A stretch of 64,000 bases of DNA from Actinomycetes bacterium (lineage in GTDB: Bacteria; Actinomycetota; Acidimicrobiia; Acidimicrobiales; Acidimicrobiaceae), in the NCBI GenBank assembly GCA_021819725.1, contig JAKAQR010000008.1:70360-134359 (forward strand), written 5' to 3'. The translations under genes and the position numbers were made by a program. Below the pieces are notes generated by a model. That model was not told the DNA's origin. It was given only the letters and a program-made list of their open reading frames with translations, and did not search any database. Shown here one piece after another: positions 10,994 through 23,801 of the stretch. Every line of letters begins with the position of its first letter. The stretch's first letter is position 1.

Positions 10994-11761
10994 ATGCGGT
11001 TCGCAACCTGGAACGTGAATTCACTCCGAGCTCGACGTGAGTTGGTTGCTCAGTGGCTCCGTGAGCAGCAACCCGATATCCTTTGCCTGCAAGAGACCAA
11101 GGTGAAGGATGCGGAGTTCCCGGAAGATCTCTTCGCAGAGGTCAACTATCACGTTGCCCACTGGGGCGTTTCGGCTTGGAATGGGGTTGCTTTGGTCACC
11201 CGTGAACCAGTCGAGCAGCTTGGCCTCGGGATCGTTGACGATGCAGAAGAGGCGCGCTGCATCACCGGAATCGTTGGGGGTATCAGAGTATTCTCGGTCT
11301 ATGTTCCTAATGGTCGCTCTCTCGATGACCCCCACTATGTCTACAAGTTGGAGTGGCTCGAGTTACTTCGCCAACGCGTCGCGGAGGAGCTACAGCGGGG
11401 TCCAGTGATCATCGCTGGGGATTTCAATATCGCCCCTACCGATGCAGATGTCTATGACCCAGCCGCTCTCGAGGGCGCCACTCACGTGAGTGAACCCGAA
11501 CGGATGGCCCTGCAGCGGCTGCTCGATCTCGGGTTGGTCGATTGTGGGGCGAGGCAGCCCTCCGATGAACCCAGCTTCACGTGGTGGGACTATCGTCAGG
11601 GAGCCTTTCGGCGTGGCATGGGTATGCGGATTGATCTGGTTCTGGCGTCGGAGTCACTGCAGCAGAGAGTGCGTTCCGTGGCGGTCGATCGAGCAGCGCG
11701 CGCTGCGACCAAGCCATCGGATCACGCACCGCTGGTGGTGGAGTTCGAGGATCACGACTAG
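10994..11761 (+). CDS. xth: exodeoxyribonuclease III-family DNA repair nuclease
   Basis: 255 residues of endonuclease/exonuclease/phosphatase fold. Family blocks in order: MRFATWNVNSLRAR at the start, QETKVKD (metal-binding Glu), VYVPNG, IIAGDFNIAPTD, FTWWDYRQGAF and SDHAPLVVEF (catalytic Asp-His). It cuts at abasic sites and trims 3' ends. Immediately follows fabZ. The stop overlaps the convergent uvrD2 stop by 4 bases. Confidence 0.94.
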   Translation: MRFATWNVNSLRARRELVAQWLREQQPDILCLQETKVKDAEFPEDLFAEVNYHVAHWGVSAWNGVALVTREPVEQLGLGIVDDAEEARCITGIVGGIRVFSVYVPNGRSLDDPHYVYKLEWLELLRQRVAEELQRGPVIIAGDFNIAPTDADVYDPAALEGATHVSEPERMALQRLLDLGLVDCGARQPSDEPSFTWWDYRQGAFRRGMGMRIDLVLASESLQQRVRSVAVDRAARAATKPSDHAPLVVEFEDHD

Positions 11762-13608
11762 GGAACCCGAAGGAACTCTCCCCAGAGACGGTCGATGAGC
11801 TCAGGCGACTCCCTGACGAGCGGGGTACTCACGAGGGCGGCGACCGATTCCCTATCGGAGGGACGAAGGCGCGCGAGTCTGCGAACGTCGGCGTCTGAGA
11901 GGACGAGATAGGAGGCCAACTGACGCTCCTTGGCGACGGTTACACGCCAACGGTCCAATCGGGTTGCGATGGAGGGGTGGGCCTGCGAGTGGGGGATTCG
12001 TGTGTGGGGCTTCACCTCTGCGGAGTCGAGATGGGCGAGTAGGGTCGACGGTCCGCGACTGGGTTTTGACCAACTGATGGTGAGCGAGTCAGTCGCTCTC
12101 GTCATCGCCACATAGAGAAGTCGTCGTTCTTCAGCGAGTGCACTCGAGGAGAGCCCGTGGCGAGAGGGGTAACTCTTCTCGCCAATACCGACAAGGTGCA
12201 CATGGTACCATTGGAGGCCCTTTGCGCGATGGAAAGTGGTGATGCTCACCGCATCGACTCCCTTGATCTGGAGTCCACGTAGCAGCTCTTCGAGGGCAAG
12301 ATAATCTGACCTGGGGTCCTGCCGTCGGAGTTCGTTCGCCACTTCAAGCAGTATCCGTAGGTTGGGGGTGCGAGTCGGTGTTGAGGAGAGGAGCGCCTCC
12401 TCGACGGTGTCGCAGATCTCTGTGATCTGGAGGCGTTCTGTGCGCGCGCTTCGCATGAGTGCAATCACCTCTGGGGCTGAGGCGAGTGGGGTCAGCCCGA
12501 GGACACTGTGGGGGATATCGAAACGGCGAAAGGCCTCCTCGATCGGGGATAGTTGGCGAATGGTTCGCGCGAGGATCGCCATTGAGGAGTAGGGAATGTC
12601 GCGATGAGCCAGCTCCACCACTGCCCTGGCGGCACGCAATCCCTCCGCGGCTACCGAGTCCGTCCCGAAGAGACTGGGGAGCTGACCTCCCTGGCGCTGC
12701 GCCCGCATGCTGATTCGCCGATCATCACTGGCGACAGGGCTGGCCGCTGCAACGAGCGCGGCGGTGCTGCGATAGTTGGTGGAGAGGGTGAGGTGGGTCA
12801 GTGTTGGGATGTGGCTCGAAAGCTGCGTCATCAGCGCCGGATCCGATCCGTTCCAGCCATAGATCGCTTGGTTCGGATCTCCGACGACGGTAAGTCCTGA
12901 GAGGTTATTGCCCATCCATCTCTCAATGAAGCGAAGCTGGAGGGGGTTGACGTCTTGAAACTCATCGATGTAGACCCAGCGAGCCTGGAGGCGGAGGGCT
13001 TCGCCGACGCCGTCATCGCGTGTGACGAGTTCGGTGGCGATCCGTAGAACATCGGTCAGGTCCATGAGGCGTTGGCGCGCCTTGGCGCGCTCAAGAGCCA
13101 CGAAGATGGCGATGAGCTCATCAGGGTTTGGCACTGCGATGATGGTTGGGTTGCGCTGGAGACCCTCAGCGTCATGGCCGAGCGCACGAAGGCGCTCGAT
13201 CTCAGCCATGACGCCACGACGACGAGCCTCGGGGAGGCGCAACCCGAGGTCGGCTAGGAGTGTCGTCGTGTCACCGATGAGATGCGGGAGCGGCCTACCC
13301 AGCATCGCTGAACCCTCACGAACCAACCCAAGGGCATGGGAGTGAAAGGTGCCACAGGCCGGTGGTGGTCCGTCGAGGAGTCGATAGAGCCGCCGTGAGA
13401 CCTCCCATGCGGCGGCCCGCGTGAAACTGATCGCGACCGTTTGGGTACTGCGGTTCGCTTGCGTGGCGATCTGGTAGGCAATTCTGTGAGTGATCACGCG
13501 AGTCTTGCCTGAGCCAGCCCCAGCAACGATGAGCACCGGCGCGGCCGCCATGACCGCTTCGCGTTGTTCGGAGCTCAGACCCTCAAGGAGTTGTGCTGGA
13601 TTTGGCAT
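11758..13608 (-). CDS. uvrD2: UvrD2-like superfamily I DNA helicase with C-terminal HRDC domain
   Basis: 616 residues. Motif I GAGSGKT is at 30-36, Ia in AISFTRAAAWEV, motif II DEFQD at 215-219, motif III GDPNQAIYGW, motif IV TNYRS, motif V TTFHRAKGLQW and motif VI LLYVAMTRA. The last ~70 residues (WRVTVAKERQLASYLVLSDA onward) look like an HRDC domain, characteristic of actinobacterial UvrD2, a 3'-5' DNA helicase; the tetracysteine motif of the mycobacterial protein was not seen and the protein is shorter. It begins 3 bases after the radical SAM gene stop and is the last gene of a three-gene leftward operon. Confidence 0.92.
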   Translation of the reverse strand: MPNPAQLLEGLSSEQREAVMAAAPVLIVAGAGSGKTRVITHRIAYQIATQANRSTQTVAISFTRAAAWEVSRRLYRLLDGPPPACGTFHSHALGLVREGSAMLGRPLPHLIGDTTTLLADLGLRLPEARRRGVMAEIERLRALGHDAEGLQRNPTIIAVPNPDELIAIFVALERAKARQRLMDLTDVLRIATELVTRDDGVGEALRLQARWVYIDEFQDVNPLQLRFIERWMGNNLSGLTVVGDPNQAIYGWNGSDPALMTQLSSHIPTLTHLTLSTNYRSTAALVAAASPVASDDRRISMRAQRQGGQLPSLFGTDSVAAEGLRAARAVVELAHRDIPYSSMAILARTIRQLSPIEEAFRRFDIPHSVLGLTPLASAPEVIALMRSARTERLQITEICDTVEEALLSSTPTRTPNLRILLEVANELRRQDPRSDYLALEELLRGLQIKGVDAVSITTFHRAKGLQWYHVHLVGIGEKSYPSRHGLSSSALAEERRLLYVAMTRATDSLTISWSKPSRGPSTLLAHLDSAEVKPHTRIPHSQAHPSIATRLDRWRVTVAKERQLASYLVLSDADVRRLARLRPSDRESVAALVSTPLVRESPELIDRLWGEFLRVP

Positions 13609-13611
13609 CGG

Positions 13612-14967
13612 CTACCGTGGCTGCGCGGGGGCGGCACAGCAGAACCAAGGTTCGCTCATGATGGCGGTGCTCGGTGCACGTACCCGTGCCGTTGGAGCGC
13701 TCGGTGTAGACAATCCATTGGCCTCATAGGTTGCGGCGTAGATACGCCGAAACGTTGTGCCAAAGGTATCCTCACCGGCTTGGGCGGCAATCTGGTATAG
13801 CCGATCGCGCAGATAGGGTAGGCGCTCATCGCGGTAACGAACGGTGTAGCCCATCACTCGGGCATCGTAGGGGCCAAAATCCGTGTCATTGACTGGTAGC
13901 AAGGAGTTGGTCGGCGTGAGCAGTTCGATCGAGTACTGGATCGGTTCAACCACGTCAACTAAGTCGGAGTCGACGATGAAGTCAACGATAGCAACGAGGT
14001 CACTCATTGTCGTCCAGGGGGTAAATGGCACGAAGGTCGGATGTAGAGCGATGCCATTGGCATAGAGGAGATCTCTTGCGATTGGCACATCGGCGCCAGT
14101 GTGGCCCTTGTCCAGGTGACCGAGCACGTCATCGTTAAGGCTCTCCACGGCGGAGATGACGAAGTTGACGTGACTTGCCGCCAACGTGGGGATGAGGTCG
14201 CGGTGACGAAGGATCTCAGCGATTTTGGTGGTGATATCGAAGGTGACCCATGGCGCCTTCTCGGCCAAGGTGGTGAGCACCTTCAATGAGTGCTTGGGAG
14301 CGTTGAGAAAGTCCGGATCGCCAAAGCTGAGATGCTGGGCACCCGCTTCGATCTGCGCGAGACCATCCGTGATGACCGCCTCCGCATCGTTGATGGCAAT
14401 TCTTCCGTTCCAGGTGGCAGCCACCGGGCAGTGAAGGCATCGGTGTCGGCAACCTACCGAGGTCTCGAGATAGCCGGTCACAAGGTCGTGGCCAGCGATG
14501 CTGACACTGCGATAGCTATCGAGTGGCATAAGCGGTGTTCGATTGACACGATAGGATCGTCGATTGGTCGCCTTGGCGGTTTGCGTGTGGGCTTGGGTAT
14601 CGATGAAGGAGGATTGCACCAGCGCAGCAAGCTCGGAGGCGGTCGCTCGGTCCAGCCAGAGGGCCTCCGGTGGACGGTGGAGCGACTCCCGCAGTGCCGT
14701 GGCATAGAGCCCGACGACGATCAGCTGACGTTCTGGTTGATCGGGTTCGAGGGCGGCAAGGAGATCCCTGGCGACGAGCGCGCCGGTGAGCATCGGTGCC
14801 GTGAGGATGACACGTGTGGCATGGCTCATCGCATCGGCGGCGACCGTCAACGGAACCTTTGACAGGTCGAGAACTTCAAGACGTCCTTCAGGCAACTCCG
14901 CTGCGACCTCGGCGGCAAGCTGTGGCTGGTGGCCGAGTTCGTACGTGGAGATGAAGAGTACCGACAT
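13612..14967 (-). CDS. radical SAM protein with C-terminal Cys-Cys (CCAAP) tail
   Basis: 451 residues. An N-terminal ~140-residue alpha/beta domain (MSVLFISTYELGHQP, strands like VILTAPML and LIVVGLYAT) precedes the radical SAM core, whose CxxxCxxC is C173-C177-C180 in GCRHRCLHCPV. The protein ends WFCCAAPAQPR, with adjacent Cys 443 and 444 (codons TGC TGT) eight residues before the stop. This matches the architecture described as CUAEP/CCAEP-tail radical SAM (seleno)proteins, with Ala for Glu, so both positions are ordinary cysteine here. The reaction is unknown. It lies 36 bases after an ATP-grasp gene and 3 bases before uvrD2; the ATP-grasp gene is the likelier functional partner. Confidence 0.85.
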   Translation of the reverse strand: MSVLFISTYELGHQPQLAAEVAAELPEGRLEVLDLSKVPLTVAADAMSHATRVILTAPMLTGALVARDLLAALEPDQPERQLIVVGLYATALRESLHRPPEALWLDRATASELAALVQSSFIDTQAHTQTAKATNRRSYRVNRTPLMPLDSYRSVSIAGHDLVTGYLETSVGCRHRCLHCPVAATWNGRIAINDAEAVITDGLAQIEAGAQHLSFGDPDFLNAPKHSLKVLTTLAEKAPWVTFDITTKIAEILRHRDLIPTLAASHVNFVISAVESLNDDVLGHLDKGHTGADVPIARDLLYANGIALHPTFVPFTPWTTMSDLVAIVDFIVDSDLVDVVEPIQYSIELLTPTNSLLPVNDTDFGPYDARVMGYTVRYRDERLPYLRDRLYQIAAQAGEDTFGTTFRRIYAATYEANGLSTPSAPTARVRAPSTAIMSEPWFCCAAPAQPR

Positions 14968-15003
14968 GAGACCAGTCTACCGGGCCGCGTTTACTGGATT
15001 GGT

Positions 15004-16221
15004 TTACTGGGTTGAGTCGATCACGATTCTGAGTTGGGCGCTCGCGTCTGCGAGGGTATGTTGCACGCTCGCATGGCTCAGCCCTTCTGCGAAAATAAAG
15101 CCGAGATAGCGATCGGTCAACGGCGGTGGATAGACCATGGTCCCTGGGTTGACGGTGATCTCGATACCGGTGACACCGCTGGTTGCGAGCGCCGCCTCGA
15201 GACCCCTGACCTCGCGGAAAATACCTCTCGCTGGTGTCGCTATCATGTAGATGCCCACCGACCGGTTCCGACGCCTGATGGGGCTCGTGTCTCCAAGGGC
15301 TCGTTGTAAGATGATGTCCTCAAGGCGCTGTCCGTCTCCAAAGCGAATCGCTGCGGAGCAACGGCCGCCGATCGATCGAGGGGCGAGTTCGAGGATGGTT
15401 GCATGCCCCTTGGCGAGACGCAATTCAGCGTGGAGAGGGGTGTCCGCCAACCCAAGGGCACGAGCGCCGCGCTCCACTGTGCTCGTGAGTTCGTGCTGCT
15501 GGGCCGGTGTGAGCCTGGCTGGCCCGACGTAGGTCGACTCCCAGAAGTACGGGCCTTCACCGATGTCGGGTTTTGCAAAGATCATGAGAACCTCAAGATC
15601 CTCACCGTTGAGGATACCTTCGATGGCGAACTCGGGCCCTTCGACGTAGCTCTCGAGGAGCAGCGGCGTGCCCGGGTCGATCACTCCGTTGAGGATCTCC
15701 AGATCCTGGCTAAGCGTTGCGCTGTTGACCCGGATGACCCCGCGTGATGCTGTTTCCCGTGGGGGCTTTACGATGAAGCGTTCCCCGAGATCTGCGACGA
15801 GGTCATCGATTGCCGCGGTGCCGAGCTGCGAAAGTGCCTCCAGCGTCGTGAAGAGGTGCTTTGGCTGGCTGAGTTCCGCTTCGTCGAGGGCTCTGCGTAA
15901 GGAGAGCTTGTCGACGGCACGCTCGACGGCCTGGGCTCGGCCGACGGTGAGGCCGAGTCGATCACTGAGGAGTGCAGCGAGGCGAGTAGAGGGTTCATCG
16001 ATGCCAATGATGAGCGTCGGTGCGAGGTCGAAGAGTCGGTCGACGAGTTGTGCTAACTCCTCAGCATCTGGTGGCATCGTGCTCACATGAAGACTTGCAT
16101 CTCCTAGGGGAAGGCTTGCGTCAGTGAGCAAGGTAAGCCGTTGTGTGGTGCGCGCCCCCGCCTGTAAAAAGGCGTCTGCTCGATAGCTCTCGGCTGGCAC
16201 GACGAGGACGATGTGTTGCAT
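15004..16221 (-). CDS. ATP-grasp domain ligase of unknown substrate
   Basis: 405 residues. An N-terminal alpha/beta domain (1-95) is followed by an ATP-grasp fold. FIVKPPRETASRG near 149-161 holds the ATP-binding Lys152, LLLESYVEGPEFAIEG is the strand-loop over the nucleotide, and ILELAPRSIGGR near 283-294 is the Mg2+/phosphate site. The order and C-terminal domain resemble the carbamoyl-phosphate-synthase-like and L-amino-acid-ligase group, which join a carboxylate to an amine or thiol through an acyl phosphate. First gene of the operon with the CCAAP-tail radical SAM gene. No Shine-Dalgarno precedes ATG 16221. Substrate cannot be told from sequence. Confidence 0.88.
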   Translation of the reverse strand: MQHIVLVVPAESYRADAFLQAGARTTQRLTLLTDASLPLGDASLHVSTMPPDAEELAQLVDRLFDLAPTLIIGIDEPSTRLAALLSDRLGLTVGRAQAVERAVDKLSLRRALDEAELSQPKHLFTTLEALSQLGTAAIDDLVADLGERFIVKPPRETASRGVIRVNSATLSQDLEILNGVIDPGTPLLLESYVEGPEFAIEGILNGEDLEVLMIFAKPDIGEGPYFWESTYVGPARLTPAQQHELTSTVERGARALGLADTPLHAELRLAKGHATILELAPRSIGGRCSAAIRFGDGQRLEDIILQRALGDTSPIRRRNRSVGIYMIATPARGIFREVRGLEAALATSGVTGIEITVNPGTMVYPPPLTDRYLGFIFAEGLSHASVQHTLADASAQLRIVIDSTQ

Positions 16222-16338
16222 GTGTCTAGAATGGTACTACGAACGATAGTGATTGCGTTCAACACGACGGGTCGGTGCTCATGTGCTTGGCTGTTTCGTC
16301 GTGGAGAGACCACTTCAAAGAAGTGAGGAATGGGAGCG

Positions 16339-16956
16339 ATGAGCGATTTTCGGGTAACAGATGCGGCGGTAGGAGTGGTGTTGGAGGCGTTGGCCGACGA
16401 GGGCTCGTCTGAGACACTCGCACTTTGGGTCGAGGTCGCTGGTAACGACGGAACATCATTCATGTACGATGTCTATTTCCAGGAGTTAACGCAGGTGGAT
16501 CCCCAGGACCTACAGCTCCGTTTTGGTGAGCTCAATGTGGTCATTCCTCAAGACTCCATCTCACGACTTGCAGGAGCGACCATGGAGGTCGGCAGCGACG
16601 GCGAGCTGGCCATCACGAACCCGAACACCCCAACCCCTGAGGCTACCGACCTACCCGATCTGGGTCCGGACGCACTCGCCAATGACCTCGCCCTGCGGGT
16701 TAACGCTATCCTCGAAGAGCAGGTGAATCCAGCGATTGCTGCGCACGGCGGGTATGCCGAGCTCGTGGGAGTCGTTGAAGAGCGTGCCTATGTGTTGATG
16801 GGCGGAGGTTGCCAAGGTTGTGGCTTGGCGGCCATGACACTGTCGCAGGGTATCGCCACGGCGATTCAGGATGCAGTTCCAGAGATCATCGACGTCGTTG
16901 ATGTCACCAACCATGCTGCTGGCAACAATCCCTACTACCAACCTGCCAAGAAATAA
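16339..16956 (+). CDS. nfuA: NfuA-like iron-sulfur cluster scaffold/carrier
   Basis: 205 residues in two domains. The first (1-100) is a degenerate A-type (HesB/IscA-like) domain with no cysteines. The second (about 120-190) is a NifU C-terminal domain with the cluster-binding CxxC in GGGCQGCGLAAMTL. This two-domain order is that of NfuA, which delivers 4Fe-4S clusters to target proteins. ATG 16339 is used because GAGGA at 16325-16329 is placed correctly for it and not for ATG 16330. Radical SAM, NifJ and GltD-like proteins in this window would all need such clusters. Confidence 0.88.
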   Translation: MSDFRVTDAAVGVVLEALADEGSSETLALWVEVAGNDGTSFMYDVYFQELTQVDPQDLQLRFGELNVVIPQDSISRLAGATMEVGSDGELAITNPNTPTPEATDLPDLGPDALANDLALRVNAILEEQVNPAIAAHGGYAELVGVVEERAYVLMGGGCQGCGLAAMTLSQGIATAIQDAVPEIIDVVDVTNHAAGNNPYYQPAKK

Positions 16957-19599: not shown

Positions 19600-20139
19600 C
19601 TACCAACCTGCGCTCGCAGCCGAGCTGTGCCAGCCAGAGCCAGCGGTGGTGCTAATGGTGGGTGTTGCTGCGCAGGATGTTATTGGGCTCGTTCCCGAGT
19701 AGTAGTAGGTACCTGCTCCAGCCCCGAGTGCGACATCTTCGATCGCGAAGCTGGTCCCGGATGCGGCTGTTTCCGCCAGACAGACAGAGGTCTCTGGTGT
19801 TGCGCTTGAACTCGAGCCTGACGAAGTGCTGCCGGATGAACTCGGAAGGAGGACGCTAATCGTGTTGTCAGTGAGTGCCTTCGTGTAAGCCGGATCGAGC
19901 TTTATCAGCCCCGCACTATCCACGTAACTCTGGTTGTTGGTATAGGCCACCGACTCCGAGGTCAAAAGGTTCCGTAGGTCGGTCTCTGTGGCCTTATTCT
20001 GGGCCGAGGTTCGGGCTCCGAGAAAGGTAGGGATCGCGATCGCGGCGAGAATACCCATGATCAGGATGACCACCATCAACTCGATGAGTGTAAACCCGGA
20101 CTCATCACTTTTTGTTAATTTCCGATAGATCTGAGACAT
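19600..20139 (-). CDS. pilA: type IV pilin-like major subunit (class III signal peptide)
   Basis: 179 residues from ATG 20139, which follows AAGGAG by 7 bases. The type III signal is DESG|FTLIELMVVILIMGI: cleavage after Gly15, Phe at +1 and Glu at +5 of the mature protein, then about 20 hydrophobic residues. The body has a Ser-rich segment (SSSGSTSSGSSSS) and a pair of cysteines (VCLAET and ITSCAAT) that may form the C-terminal disulfide loop. It is exported, cleaved by the prepilin peptidase encoded divergently next door, and assembled into a pilus or pseudopilus. Confidence 0.93.
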   Translation of the reverse strand: MSQIYRKLTKSDESGFTLIELMVVILIMGILAAIAIPTFLGARTSAQNKATETDLRNLLTSESVAYTNNQSYVDSAGLIKLDPAYTKALTDNTISVLLPSSSGSTSSGSSSSATPETSVCLAETAASGTSFAIEDVALGAGAGTYYYSGTSPITSCAATPTISTTAGSGWHSSAASAGW

Positions 20140-20326
20140 CCTTTTCTCCTTGCTGGCTTTCACGTCTCCGTGCACCGGAATTCCGGTACCTCCTCTGCTT
20201 CGGCGCGCTGGATGGGAAAACTTGAATGAAATAAACGCTGCAAGTGAGAATTATCTGTTGTGGGAGGCGCGGCTGCGGTTGGCGCGCTATTCAACTCGCC
20301 CGCGATTTCGTCCGAAGGCACTAATC

Positions 20327-21073
20327 ATGGGTGTGGTGATCGGTCTTGTCTTTGGCCTCATTGGTGGATCGGCGATGACCTCACTGACCTATCGGATTCC
20401 CGAGGGGCTCCCGCTGATGATGGACCGATCGAAGTGTCCATCGTGTTCGCACCCGATTCGAGCTCGCGATAACGTGCCCGTGTTTGCCTATCTGTGGTTA
20501 CGGGGGCGTTGTCGTGACTGTTCGGCGTCCATCCCGTGGCGCTATCCCCTGACGGAGCTAGCGGGTGCAGCGATCGGGGTGGTTGCGGCACTCACTCCCG
20601 TCGATACGCTCGACAAGTTCAGCTGTGGTCTGGCACTCCTGGTCGGGCTTGGGGCCGCCGTGATCGATCAGAGGACCTATCGGATTCCGAATGCGTTAAC
20701 CTATCCAGCGGCACTCCTTCTCCTCGTGCTCGGCATCGCGAACGCGTGGATCTCTGGTCGGTGGAGCCCCTTCGTCCTCACCATCGGCCTTGCCGTAGCG
20801 ATCCTCGTGTTCTTTGTTCTCCTGCGGGTTGTTTCACGCGGAGGCATGGGTCTCGGCGATGCGAAGCTTGCGGCAGTCTTGGTCCTTGGTGTCGCAGCGT
20901 TCGGTATTTGGAGTACCGTTCTCGCTGTCCTTGCGAGCTTTTTTGCTGGGTCAGTGGTGGGGGTTGGTTTGATACTCGCAAAACGGTCTAACCTTCGAGC
21001 ACAACTCCCTTTTGGACCATTCCTCACCGTTGGGTTTGTGCTCACTACTCTTAGTGTTGTTATTTTTCACTGA
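20327..21073 (+). CDS. pilD: prepilin peptidase (A24 family)
   Basis: 248 residues. The cytoplasmic zinc-type loop has CPSC (37-40) and CRDC (62-65). The two catalytic Asp residues are Asp114 in VIDQRTYRIPN and Asp178 in GMGLGDAKL. About seven transmembrane helices are visible. It cleaves and N-methylates type IV prepilins at the inner membrane. ATG 20327 has GAAGG at 20314-20318; the longer frame upstream crosses the pilin promoter region. Divergent from the pilin gene and 72 bases before pilMN. Confidence 0.93.
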   Translation: MGVVIGLVFGLIGGSAMTSLTYRIPEGLPLMMDRSKCPSCSHPIRARDNVPVFAYLWLRGRCRDCSASIPWRYPLTELAGAAIGVVAALTPVDTLDKFSCGLALLVGLGAAVIDQRTYRIPNALTYPAALLLLVLGIANAWISGRWSPFVLTIGLAVAILVFFVLLRVVSRGGMGLGDAKLAAVLVLGVAAFGIWSTVLAVLASFFAGSVVGVGLILAKRSNLRAQLPFGPFLTVGFVLTTLSVVIFH

Positions 21074-21145
21074 TAGCGGGGCAATTGGTCAACTTTGTCG
21101 CCGTTTTGGCCGATGCCCTCTTGGGAGTTTAGCGAGGATTCAAGG

Positions 21146-22849
21146 ATGGAAAAACTCATACTCTTAGAGATCGGAGCATTCTCCATCAAGGCATGCGAGA
21201 TCGAGGTGTCTCGGCGTTCGCGACCACCGCTTTGGCTCGCCCATCGCGTCTTGCCCGATGGGGCGCACGAGCATCCTGAGAAGGTGGTGGAGACGCTTCG
21301 AGGTCTGCTCCGAGAGGCAGGTACCCGAACCAAGGCGACACGGTTGATCGTGACCGATCCGGATCTTGTGGTGCGAAGCCTCAATGTTCCGAGCTCCGAC
21401 AAGCATGAGCTGGAGATGACCTTTGGATTCGCGATGACAGAGGTCTTACCACTTCCCCTCGATGAACTTGTGGTCGATTATGAGACCGCGACTAAGGGGC
21501 GATCGCCGAACCCGAACGTCGTCATGGCCGGTGCTCCCAAGGCCACCATCGCTAAGGCGATCGATGTTGCCGAACGTAGTGGCTTGCGTGTCGATTGGGT
21601 CGATGTGGGGCCGCTGGCGGCGGCACGCGCCGTGAGTGAGCTCTCGAGAACCGAAGGCGAGGGCTATTACCTGGTGGTGGTCGGGGCCACCACCACCACG
21701 ATCGAGGTGGTGGTGGGAGACCAACCACAACTCGTTCGTTCGATCAGGATGGGTGGCGAGCTCATCACCCAAGAGATCGCTCGACGCCTAGAGGTGGCGT
21801 ACGAGGCGGCTGAGGGTCTCAAGAGAGCGATAGCGATCCAAGCATCAGAGGAGATCCATCAGCTCGACGGGTTCGCCACAGCAGATGGTATCGTCGCCGA
21901 TGGTGTGCGCGCCATTGTGCAAGAGGTTGCCTCCTCGATCGATTACTTCGCTATTCAAAGGGGCTACACCGACATCGACCGGCTGGTGCTCGTAGGTGGC
22001 TCATCGGCGGTCGAGCGGCTTGGCGTGGAGCTGGGCGACAAACTCGCCCTGAAGGTGGAACGACCGGGACCACGACAGGTGCTCAGACTCATCGAAGCCG
22101 ATGCTTTTGTGGAGGATTCATCGAGCAACTGGGTCGAAATGACTGGCGCGGTGATGCGCGCACGCACCCATGACAAAGGAGTCAAGTATGTCAATCTCCT
22201 CCCTGCGCGTGTCCGAGCACGCCGTCAGCATCGCCGCCAGCTCATGCTGGTCGGCGCGGCGGGCGTGGTGCTGATTGGCGCGGGTGCATTGTTGACCCTC
22301 CAGCGCTATCAACAGCTCCAACAGGTCCAAGCGACGCAAACATCGTTGACGACGCAGCTTGGCGTGCTAAGCGGCCAGATGGCTCGGTACGCAACGTACG
22401 GTGCCCTCGCCCAAGGAGTTCGTTCAGCTCGATCGACGGTGACCCAGCAGCTTGCGTCATCGATCGATTTTCCCCAGCTGTTGACCCAGATCGCCGGGGC
22501 TACCCCATCTGACTCGTGGCTGACCAGTCTCAGTATTGGCGCACCGACCACCTCGACGGGAGGTGCTTCAGGGCTAGGTGTCAGCTTTAGTCTCGAAGGT
22601 TGCTCACAGCTTGCACCCGCCCATTGGCTCGACTCGATGAGTAAACTCAGTTTCCTCGAGAACCTCTGGGTCTCCTCGTCGACCTTGACGCCACCAGGGA
22701 ACACCACTCCGTCCTGTGGCGTCGGCGTTCCCTCTGCTGAGATGGTTGAAGCTGGCATGACAACCTATCAAGGGTCGGCCATCATCTCGAATAACTTTGC
22801 TCAGTACCGAAGTGCGTCGTACCTGCGACAGTTGGGGGCATCCTCATGA
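21146..22849 (+). CDS. pilMN: PilM-PilN fusion protein of the type IV pilus assembly platform
   Basis: 568 residues. Residues 1 to about 340 are an actin-like PilM ATPase (LLEIGAFSIKACEIE at the start; DRLVLVGGSSAVERLG as the second phosphate/adenosine motif). From about 346 the sequence becomes PilN: KYVNLLPARVRARR, one transmembrane helix (LMLVGAAGVVLIGAGALLTL, about 364-383), then a coiled coil and periplasmic domain. In most bacteria these are two adjacent genes; the PilN NLLP motif is normally what PilM binds. GAGGA precedes ATG 21146 by 7 bases. Overlaps pilO by 4 bases. Confidence 0.85.
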   Translation: MEKLILLEIGAFSIKACEIEVSRRSRPPLWLAHRVLPDGAHEHPEKVVETLRGLLREAGTRTKATRLIVTDPDLVVRSLNVPSSDKHELEMTFGFAMTEVLPLPLDELVVDYETATKGRSPNPNVVMAGAPKATIAKAIDVAERSGLRVDWVDVGPLAAARAVSELSRTEGEGYYLVVVGATTTTIEVVVGDQPQLVRSIRMGGELITQEIARRLEVAYEAAEGLKRAIAIQASEEIHQLDGFATADGIVADGVRAIVQEVASSIDYFAIQRGYTDIDRLVLVGGSSAVERLGVELGDKLALKVERPGPRQVLRLIEADAFVEDSSSNWVEMTGAVMRARTHDKGVKYVNLLPARVRARRQHRRQLMLVGAAGVVLIGAGALLTLQRYQQLQQVQATQTSLTTQLGVLSGQMARYATYGALAQGVRSARSTVTQQLASSIDFPQLLTQIAGATPSDSWLTSLSIGAPTTSTGGASGLGVSFSLEGCSQLAPAHWLDSMSKLSFLENLWVSSSTLTPPGNTTPSCGVGVPSAEMVEAGMTTYQGSAIISNNFAQYRSASYLRQLGASS

Positions 22850-23421
22850 AAATCACTCGATCGACGATCACGACGGTTCTGGCTGGCGCGCTAGCCGTCA
22901 TCATTGGAGTGGGGTGGTACTTTGGCCTGTATGCGCCGCTGGCTGCCCATATCGCCACTACGCAGACCCAGGTGGGTGTAGATCAGTCTCAGCTGGCCAA
23001 CGATCGAGTGCAGCTGTCGCAGCTGATCGACGACAAACATCAGGCACCTCTTCTACGCGCACAGCTCAGAGCTCTTACTTCGGCGTTGCCCACCACCTTC
23101 TCTCTCGCCTCCTTCATCAGTCAGGCTGATGCAACGGCCAGTAAGGCTGGTGTGCCGTTGCTCCAGATCACCCCATTGCAGCCAGGTGCGGCGCCGAGTA
23201 CTGGGGCCAGCTCGGCGATCGTACCAGGGGTCAGTTCGGTTGCCTTCACGGCAGAGGCGACGGGTACATTCGTGGCGTTGATGCATTTTTTGCACGGCCT
23301 TGATCATCTTGGAGAACTGGTCAATATCTCGACCATCCAGTTATCGTCACTCTCTGGTGGCGCTAGCAACAACCCCAAGATCAATCTTTCGTTTACCGGT
23401 GTCGTGTATTACCACCGCTAG
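22846..23421 (+). CDS. pilO: PilO-like type IV pilus assembly protein
   Basis: 191 residues. One N-terminal transmembrane helix (TTVLAGALAVIIGVGWYFGLY, about 9-29) is followed by a coiled-coil stretch rich in Gln/Asp (HIATTQTQVGVDQSQ...) and a ferredoxin-like periplasmic domain (LPTTFSLASFISQADATASKAG, then FVALMHFLHGLDHLGELVNI). This is PilO architecture, and the ATGA overlap with pilMN fits translational coupling and a PilN-PilO complex. Identification rests on architecture and position more than sequence identity. Confidence 0.8.
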   Translation: MKITRSTITTVLAGALAVIIGVGWYFGLYAPLAAHIATTQTQVGVDQSQLANDRVQLSQLIDDKHQAPLLRAQLRALTSALPTTFSLASFISQADATASKAGVPLLQITPLQPGAAPSTGASSAIVPGVSSVAFTAEATGTFVALMHFLHGLDHLGELVNISTIQLSSLSGGASNNPKINLSFTGVVYYHR

Positions 23422-23432
23422 GAGGTGTGAAG

Positions 23433-23801
23433 ATGACCAGCATGGAGATCGCATCGCTTCTCGAAGAGCCCCGGGTGCCAGAGGTTGGACAAGAGGAGAC
23501 ACGGCATCGGCGACCACGCCTTCTGGTCGTGGTGGTAGGGGTAATCCTCCTTGTGGGACTTGGTGTTGGCGCGTACTTTGTGCTGGCGGGACACCCGCCA
23601 TCGACTAACACCGCAGTGGCTGATACCCAACGCCCGAGCGTTCCCTCGTCCGAGACGGGACGATCAGCACCAGCGCCGGTGGTGGCCCACGCCACGGCCA
23701 GCGCACCGGTCCCGAGCAGTGAGTATTTCACTGTTAAGAACCCATTTGTGCCCAAGATGATCCAGACTGGTCCGGGATCCTCGACCCTGCCTTCTGGCTG
23801 A
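23433..23801 (+). CDS. single-pass membrane protein of the pilus locus
   Basis: 122 residues. A charged cytoplasmic start (about 1-27, ending RHRRPR) leads to one transmembrane helix (LLVVVVGVILLVGLGVGAYFVL), then a Pro/Ser/Ala-rich linker and a short end EYFTVKNPFVPKM. A F-x-x-K/R-N-P-F-x-P end is reminiscent of PilP/GspC-type proteins, and the gene sits where pilP would be, but similarity is too short to name it. AGGAGG at 23420-23425 supports ATG 23433 rather than GTG 23427. Probably the last gene of the pilus operon. Confidence 0.6.
   Translation: MTSMEIASLLEEPRVPEVGQEETRHRRPRLLVVVVGVILLVGLGVGAYFVLAGHPPSTNTAVADTQRPSVPSSETGRSAPAPVVAHATASAPVPSSEYFTVKNPFVPKMIQTGPGSSTLPSG

Follow-up and report, generated by a model that had tools for sequence, protein, structure and literature searches.

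A conserved radical SAM and ATP-grasp gene pair related to ArsL in Acidimicrobiaceae and other bacteria

In a 64,000-nucleotide stretch of DNA from an actinomycete of the family Acidimicrobiaceae (hereafter the window; contig JAKAQR010000008.1 of assembly GCA_021819725.1, positions 70,360 to 134,359), the gene of a radical S-adenosylmethionine (SAM) protein with a vicinal cysteine pair near its C-terminus lies next to the gene of an ATP-grasp ligase. The pairing of the two genes is conserved, which we hold with very high confidence. We suggest that they form a two-enzyme biosynthetic module. The module is well supported; its chemistry, read from one relative of reported chemistry, ArsL, has about an even chance of being right, and the first three steps proposed below, taken jointly, fall somewhat short of that. 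An earlier note, made from the letters of the window, had suggested a pathway in which the tail cysteines take part in redox or sulfur transfer and the ligase makes or activates the substrate. This interpretation is partly supported.

Conservation of the gene pair

Both open reading frames (ORFs) are on the minus strand, start with ATG and were found where the earlier note had placed them. The ligase gene (15004..16221; 405 amino acids, aa) is the upstream one, and the 36 bases counted earlier, positions 14968-15003, separate it from the radical SAM gene (13612..14967; 451 aa). Each has a single match in the window's assembly (2.88 Mb, 82 contigs). In 66 of 90 loci (3 duplicates) the radical SAM gene has an ATP-grasp gene of the same strand no more than 520 bases away, upstream in 49 and downstream in 17. 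The downstream-ligase loci belong, by their record titles, to Pseudomonadota, Nitrospirota and Acidobacteriota. The gene order varies between lineages yet the partnership persists, which argues for function. Three of the other loci have the ATP-grasp gene 704 to 3394 bases away, and 21 are without it in the stretch.

The pairing also holds for whole genomes. Among 198 genomes of the window's order a ligase match is present in 53 of 53 with the radical SAM gene versus 6 of 145 without it (Fisher p 8e-42, a value that overstates the case, since the genomes are not independent draws and kinship is uncorrected). In a second order, that of the Rhodospirillaceae-labelled host of locus L012, the counts are 13 of 13 and 3 of 137 (150 genomes). 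We therefore reject the view of the two genes as unrelated neighbours. All 14 genomes reached through the loci have one ligase match (partial in three), including seven in which the genes are not adjacent (G613 to G619). Homologues lacking a Cys-Cys or cysteine-selenocysteine (Cys-Sec) tail, and a failure of the two genes to co-occur, were both looked for and not found.

Six genomes of the window's order have the ligase only: G092, G159, G210, G228 and, with weak ligase matches, G055 and G108. A search of these with an 84-row profile of the radical SAM protein gave the first 117 positions next to the ligase in G210, a 41-position remnant in G228 and nothing in the other four. The ligase-only genomes of the second order are G639, G684 and G707; the same profile gave matches below 50 bits in the first two, which we take for other radical SAM proteins, and none in G707. 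One of the 53 genomes, G059, matches the two genes only weakly and probably does not truly belong to the set. The G228 locus (C1:1198401-1200458) keeps the ligase and a match to the iron-sulfur (Fe-S) protein NfuA beside its radical SAM remnant; here the partner was apparently lost while the ligase stayed.

The radical SAM protein and its tail

By profile comparison the radical SAM protein is a divergent relative, below the family cut-off, of the uncharacterised family NF040546, known by its CUAEP/CCAEP tail. This is its best NCBIfam match (349.7 bits, cut-off 500) and is near full-length, with residues 3-449 aligned to profile positions 1-463 of 468. The window protein has the CxxxCxxC motif (CRHRCLHC at residues 173-180) and the W-F-C-C-A-x-P tail, and relatives that bear the family's name occur in Acidimicrobiia and Solirubrobacteraceae. 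Apart from the score, the difference is one letter of the tail, CCAAP in the window and CCAEP or CUAEP in the family (Glu to Ala, with the Cys pair and Pro kept), so the tail is a cysteine version of the family's, as the earlier note had proposed. The NF040546 cut-off is reached in none of 42 genomes of the window's family. The second-best NCBIfam match is ArsL, NF040542 (185.9 bits, cut-off 450, E 1.4e-54), over residues 4-349, and the Pfam Radical_SAM match (27.8 bits) is slightly below its threshold of 29.5. ArsL above cut-off was found in none of 396 genomes of the phylum. Scoring of 7999 candidates gave 7678 proteins with a match at E 0.001 or better; a relative named Ferrimicrobium sp. 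is 92% identical. The gene is found in 38 of the 42 family genomes and in 20/20 of the near-complete ones.

In an alignment of 84 sequences the invariant positions include the cluster cysteines C173, C177 and C180, Y9 and G12 of the N-terminal S-T-Y-E-L-G-H-Q-P, and E439, W441, C443, C444 and P447 of the tail. The rows were chosen for a Cys-Cys tail, and the invariance of C443 and C444 there is partly by choice. The three cluster cysteines are the only invariant ones outside the tail. The AlphaFold2 model has a mean predicted local distance difference test (pLDDT) score of 93.7. Residues 431-440 are ordered in it (mean pLDDT 91, with a strand at 435-437), whereas residues 441-450, with the Cys pair, reach only 64. 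The structure prediction that the earlier note had called for thus shows an ordered stretch before the pair but places the pair itself with less certainty. A search of the PDB with the protein sequence returned nothing at E values up to 1.

The tail of the window protein is IMSEPWFCCAAPAQPR; its C443 and C444 (protein length 451 residues) are encoded by TGC TGT (13636..13641, minus strand, read directly from the DNA). The reading SEPWFCCAAPAQPR given earlier, with its FCCAAP-type end and vicinal cysteines, is thereby confirmed. Tails could be read from DNA in 89 of the 90 relatives' loci (the contig of L019 ends early); 66 are Cys-Cys, 3 of them duplicates of others, and 23 have TGA at the second position, the Cys-Sec form. 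The motifs are CCAEP (50), CUAEP (22), CCAAP (14) and CUSEP, CCSEP and CCAVP (1 each), and all 14 CCAAP tails are within the window's family, in its genus and two other genera. Some of the genome-contig loci were found via the tail peptide itself and favour that tail; the family-profile loci are independent of any one tail peptide. Out of 120 listed relatives 66 have W[FY]CC among their final 60 residues, and each of the remaining 54 ends in EPWFC, as expected where a TGA for Sec is annotated as a stop. Given that all readable tails are Cys-Cys or Cys-Sec, and given the conserved tail positions, we reject chance or a local peculiarity as the source of the tail.

Two lines of evidence, selB and a hairpin, indicate that the TGA of the relatives is a selenocysteine codon. 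All nine TGA-type genomes of the order sample with tails read (L107, L109, L114, L116, L118, L119, L131, L138 and L139) match selB, eight of them above the curated cut-off and one, G214, with a fragment of 220.6 bits; selB is also present in many other genomes, with matches above the cut-off in 107/198 of the order. A compact hairpin resembling a selenocysteine insertion sequence, with a loop that mostly starts with AGUU or AGGU (for example in L009, L010, L018, L107 and L151), lies at bases 15-33 after the TGA start. Its seven pairs hold in 224/245 pair cells for 35 TGA stretches, where compensatory changes occur, versus 183/483 for 69 Cys stretches, the window included. Sliding the register by 1 to 3 bases lowers the value of the TGA stretches to 38-58%. 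Folding z-scores average -0.79 over 32 TGA stretches and 0.02 over 59 Cys stretches. In a quick 80-row tree that includes three ArsL rows, the Cys/Sec state changed at least 10 times. Cys and Sec are thus interchangeable at the second tail position. We reject a selenoprotein for the window's own gene, as the codon is TGT and the best selB match of the genome is 206 bits (cut-off 242). In L131, L138 and L139, loci of one family (f40) with a Sec tail and no ligase in the stretch, a LytR-type gene of the same direction is close by (assigned with Pfam in L131 only).

The selenoproteome reviews of 2022 and 2026 (PMC9312934, PMC13188914) list, in their accessible parts, other radical SAM selenoproteins, and the main text of PMC13188914 contains neither CUAEP nor UAEP. 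Our literature searches gave nothing on CUAEP, and for CCAEP only unrelated papers.

ArsL relatives and the partner ligase

ArsL is the closest relative of reported chemistry. According to the accessible part of its description, arsL alone lets E. coli produce hydroxyarsinothricin from As(III), and the authors proposed a 3-amino-3-carboxypropyl transfer (PMC8552651); the accessible part of a further paper states that ArsL transfers this group of SAM to arsenic (PMC12159101). In our comparison 42 of 73 near-invariant positions, C443 and C444 included, are identical in all five added proteins of the ArsL/RCCLKC type, and G12, Q14, P15, D217, D219, T246, P317, W318 and the tail Cys pair are common to both sides. 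The window gene differs from ArsL in being conserved throughout its family. Seventeen plasmid records carry a relative, 16 of the RCCLKC/ArsL types, and in 15 of these 16 an ATP-grasp gene lies within 2.4 kb. The 15 represent few lineages (Priestia 7, Pantoea 6, Alicyclobacillus 1 and Klebsiella 1; L180, L181, L215 and L216 are examples of such loci); the exception is the ArsL cluster of Pseudomonas amygdali, with no ATP-grasp annotated within 5 kb. The ligases of these clusters share only some 23% identity with that of the window (two compared), yet align with it over 356 columns by profile (probability 99.8). We found no paper joining ATP-grasp enzymes with arsinothricin or ArsL. The presence of ATP-grasp genes in ArsL-type plasmid clusters suggests a peptide-linked arsinothricin.

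By its domains and predicted fold the window's ligase is of the L-amino-acid-ligase type. It has ATP-grasp_4 (74.4 bits) and LAL_C2 (52.1 bits), both above the gathering score. Its best PDB relatives by profile are the L-amino acid ligase BL00235 (2.5e-67) and BacD. Its model (pLDDT 91.6) has the fold relatives 3vot, 3vmm (or 3wo1) and 4wd3, with a Foldseek E of 4e-30 and a template modelling (TM) score of 0.78 for 3vot. BL00235 (3vot), BacD/YwfE and RizA are nearest by profile and fold, and share LAL_C2 and a similar E-x-x-x-R...GG loop. The window's ligase is 22% identical to BL00235 and differs from it in an invariant cysteine after the GG. This is C288, one of twenty invariant positions in 56 ligase sequences, directly after A280-P/A-R282-x-x-G285-G286. 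It is Cys in 119 of 120 listed homologues, the remaining one not fitting the search pattern, and such a Cys was not seen in the sequences and alignments of BL00235 or of the ArsL-cluster ligases. By analogy with the ATP-grasp superfamily, the loop carrying C288 is presumably on the acceptor side of the active site.

Proposed pathway and alternatives

Step 1: An ArsL-related radical SAM protein with a Cys-Cys or Cys-Sec tail accompanies an ATP-grasp enzyme of the L-amino-acid-ligase type in several phyla.

Step 2: By analogy with ArsL, the [4Fe-4S] cluster on C173, C177 and C180 would cleave SAM noncanonically with the formation of a 3-amino-3-carboxypropyl radical. The radical would attack a soft atom, X, held in the active site by the tail Cys pair, and a 2-amino-4-X-butanoate amino acid would appear at this step. 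X is probably not arsenic in most hosts, given that the search of the surroundings gave no ars-cluster gene; candidates are another metalloid, a chalcogen and an organic thiol.

Step 3: As suggested by its fold and motifs, the ATP-grasp enzyme would activate a carboxylate with ATP and join the new amino acid to another one. The invariant C288 may handle the same soft atom. Two parts of the earlier note are thus revised: ArsL points to the holding of a soft atom by the tail instead of redox or sulfur transfer, and the ligase is more likely to use the product than to supply the substrate.

Step 4: NfuA would supply or repair the Fe-S cluster of the radical SAM protein.

Several observations weigh against this pathway. 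The ligase is less often adjacent where the tail has Sec (6 of 23 TGA loci versus 59 of 66 Cys loci). The ArsL score of the window protein is far under its cut-off. The alignment with the ArsL tail spans a gap, so the match there rests on the Cys pair itself, and FCCAAP has Pro in place of the third tail Cys of RCCLKC. The distant ATP-grasps of the ArsL clusters may be a separate recruitment. Most fold neighbours of the radical SAM model are B12-type enzymes of other chemistry, and among the neighbouring genes we found neither an exporter nor a third enzyme with broad conservation. Eleven ars-cluster protein queries gave no match at E 1e-8 in the 90 loci (1.21 Mb, 4 to 18 kb each, the window's 18 kb included), whereas several of them match in each of five ArsL loci; the substrate therefore probably differs from that of ArsL.

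The strongest alternative, in our view unlikely, is that the tail works as a redox or hydrogen-atom shuttle and that the radical SAM protein performs ordinary 5'-deoxyadenosyl chemistry on a small molecule first made by the ATP-grasp enzyme, which is close to the view of the earlier note. The repeated exchange of Cys and Sec suits a redox thiol, and thioredoxin reductase has a Cys-Sec tail. The fold neighbours of the model (ranked by re-alignment of Foldseek's own matches only) are AprD4, OxsB, MgmA, CysS and TsrM, then RimO and MiaB, and AprD4, OxsB and MgmA use 5'-deoxyadenosyl radicals. PF02310, the cobalamin-binding domain, is precomputed for many relatives and has no match in the window protein. 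Against the shuttle, ArsL has other reported chemistry with the same tail Cys pair and the shared near-invariant residues. Nor is there a recurrent thioredoxin-type partner, AhpC/TSA or thioredoxin domains being present in 2 of 72 neighbour proteins.

We consider it improbable that the pair makes an arsinothricin-like amino acid from inorganic arsenite and caps it with a second amino acid. The ArsL homology, vicinal thiols of the type that suits arsenite and the ATP-grasp ligases in ArsL clusters speak for it, and mine drainage is a habitat of the window's genus. However, the negative result of the ars-cluster queries leads us to reject arsenite as the substrate in general, and the near-universal presence of the gene in the window's family is unlike a patchy antibiotic locus. 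A conserved gene with no adjoining transporter or resistance genes is likewise unlike one.

No more probable is an enzyme that inserts sulfur or selenium and uses up its own Fe-S cluster, which NfuA would then rebuild, with the tail Cys or Sec carrying the chalcogen. NfuA rebuilds the Fe-S cluster of lipoyl synthase, and MiaB and RimO are among the fold neighbours. In the window an NfuA-like Fe-S scaffold protein (16330..16956, plus strand, 208 aa; 93.4 bits to NfuA TIGR03341, cut-off 269) is encoded divergently from the ligase, 108 bases from its start. The neighbour cluster that holds it, two members of which were scanned with Pfam, is present in 45 of 87 loci. In Acidimicrobiales the gene is mostly divergent from the ligase. 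In Rhodospirillales-labelled loci the cluster member is on the same strand upstream of the radical SAM gene, and the one scanned has a different N-terminal domain, Nfu_N, besides NifU, with 52% identity to the window's protein over the 81-residue NifU part. Ten genomes of the order have the radical SAM and ligase genes on different contigs; the NfuA match is beside the ligase in six (G079, G089, G125, G158, G188 and G213) and the best one is elsewhere in G080, G189 and G214, while its place in G062 is not listed. However, NfuA is matched in 165 of the 198 order genomes and the radical SAM gene in 53, so that most genomes lacking the pair have NfuA too; it is a general Fe-S protein and, for the pair, no more than a probable helper. 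With the cluster cysteines alone invariant outside the tail, an auxiliary cluster is also not apparent.

Radical SAM and ATP-grasp pairs also occur in clusters of ribosomally synthesised and post-translationally modified peptides, and modification of a precursor peptide by both enzymes is a very improbable reading that we reject, since the gaps around the pair (3, 36 and 108 bases) are too short to hold a precursor gene, the nearest structures of the ligase are free amino-acid ligases, and recurrent neighbours beyond the ATP-grasp and NfuA genes are lineage-limited. The earlier note had likewise found no such gene; short ORFs elsewhere were not searched, and the neighbour search used ORFs of 90 aa or more, which would miss short precursors.

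Among the other neighbours, 72 of 84 listed same-strand proteins gave recurrent Pfam families only at low counts (glycosyltransferases in 4, others in at most 2). The minus-strand order in the window is the ATP-grasp gene, 36 bases, the radical SAM gene, 3 bases and a gene for a UvrD-like helicase with an HRDC domain (11758..13608). This helicase belongs to a neighbour cluster of 20 loci, all of the window's family, and we claim no functional link. In about ten Acidimicrobiales loci a weakly DUF3109-like protein (below the gathering score; for example L122:6381-7169) closely follows the radical SAM gene, and in a Nitrospirota locus (L005:7188-7916) the gene of a DUF169 (COG2043) protein precedes it in the same direction. 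Farther away, at 19600-23801, the window has successive genes that we take, from their translations, to be type IV pilin-like, prepilin-peptidase-like and PilM-like, an ordinary set.

Last but not least, the comparison adds to the earlier note the relationship to ArsL, the ATP-grasp genes in ArsL-type clusters, the invariant ligase cysteine and the adjoining NfuA-like gene. The wider picture would be an unrecognised housekeeping pathway, spread over lineages in at least seven phyla, in which the radical SAM enzyme with its Cys-Cys or Cys-Sec tail places the aminocarboxypropyl group of SAM on a non-arsenic soft atom and a dedicated ligase turns the product into a dipeptide, giving a new cofactor, metallophore or thiol- or selenol-type metabolite; the ArsL-type clusters would be a specialised offshoot that also makes peptide-capped products. 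We regard this picture as possible but doubtful. ArsL clusters with an ATP-grasp gene are predicted to make peptide-linked arsinothricin. For the uncharacterised selenoprotein family NF040546 there is now a partner enzyme that is almost obligate, as well as a relative whose chemistry has been reported, and its substrate thus becomes a testable question.

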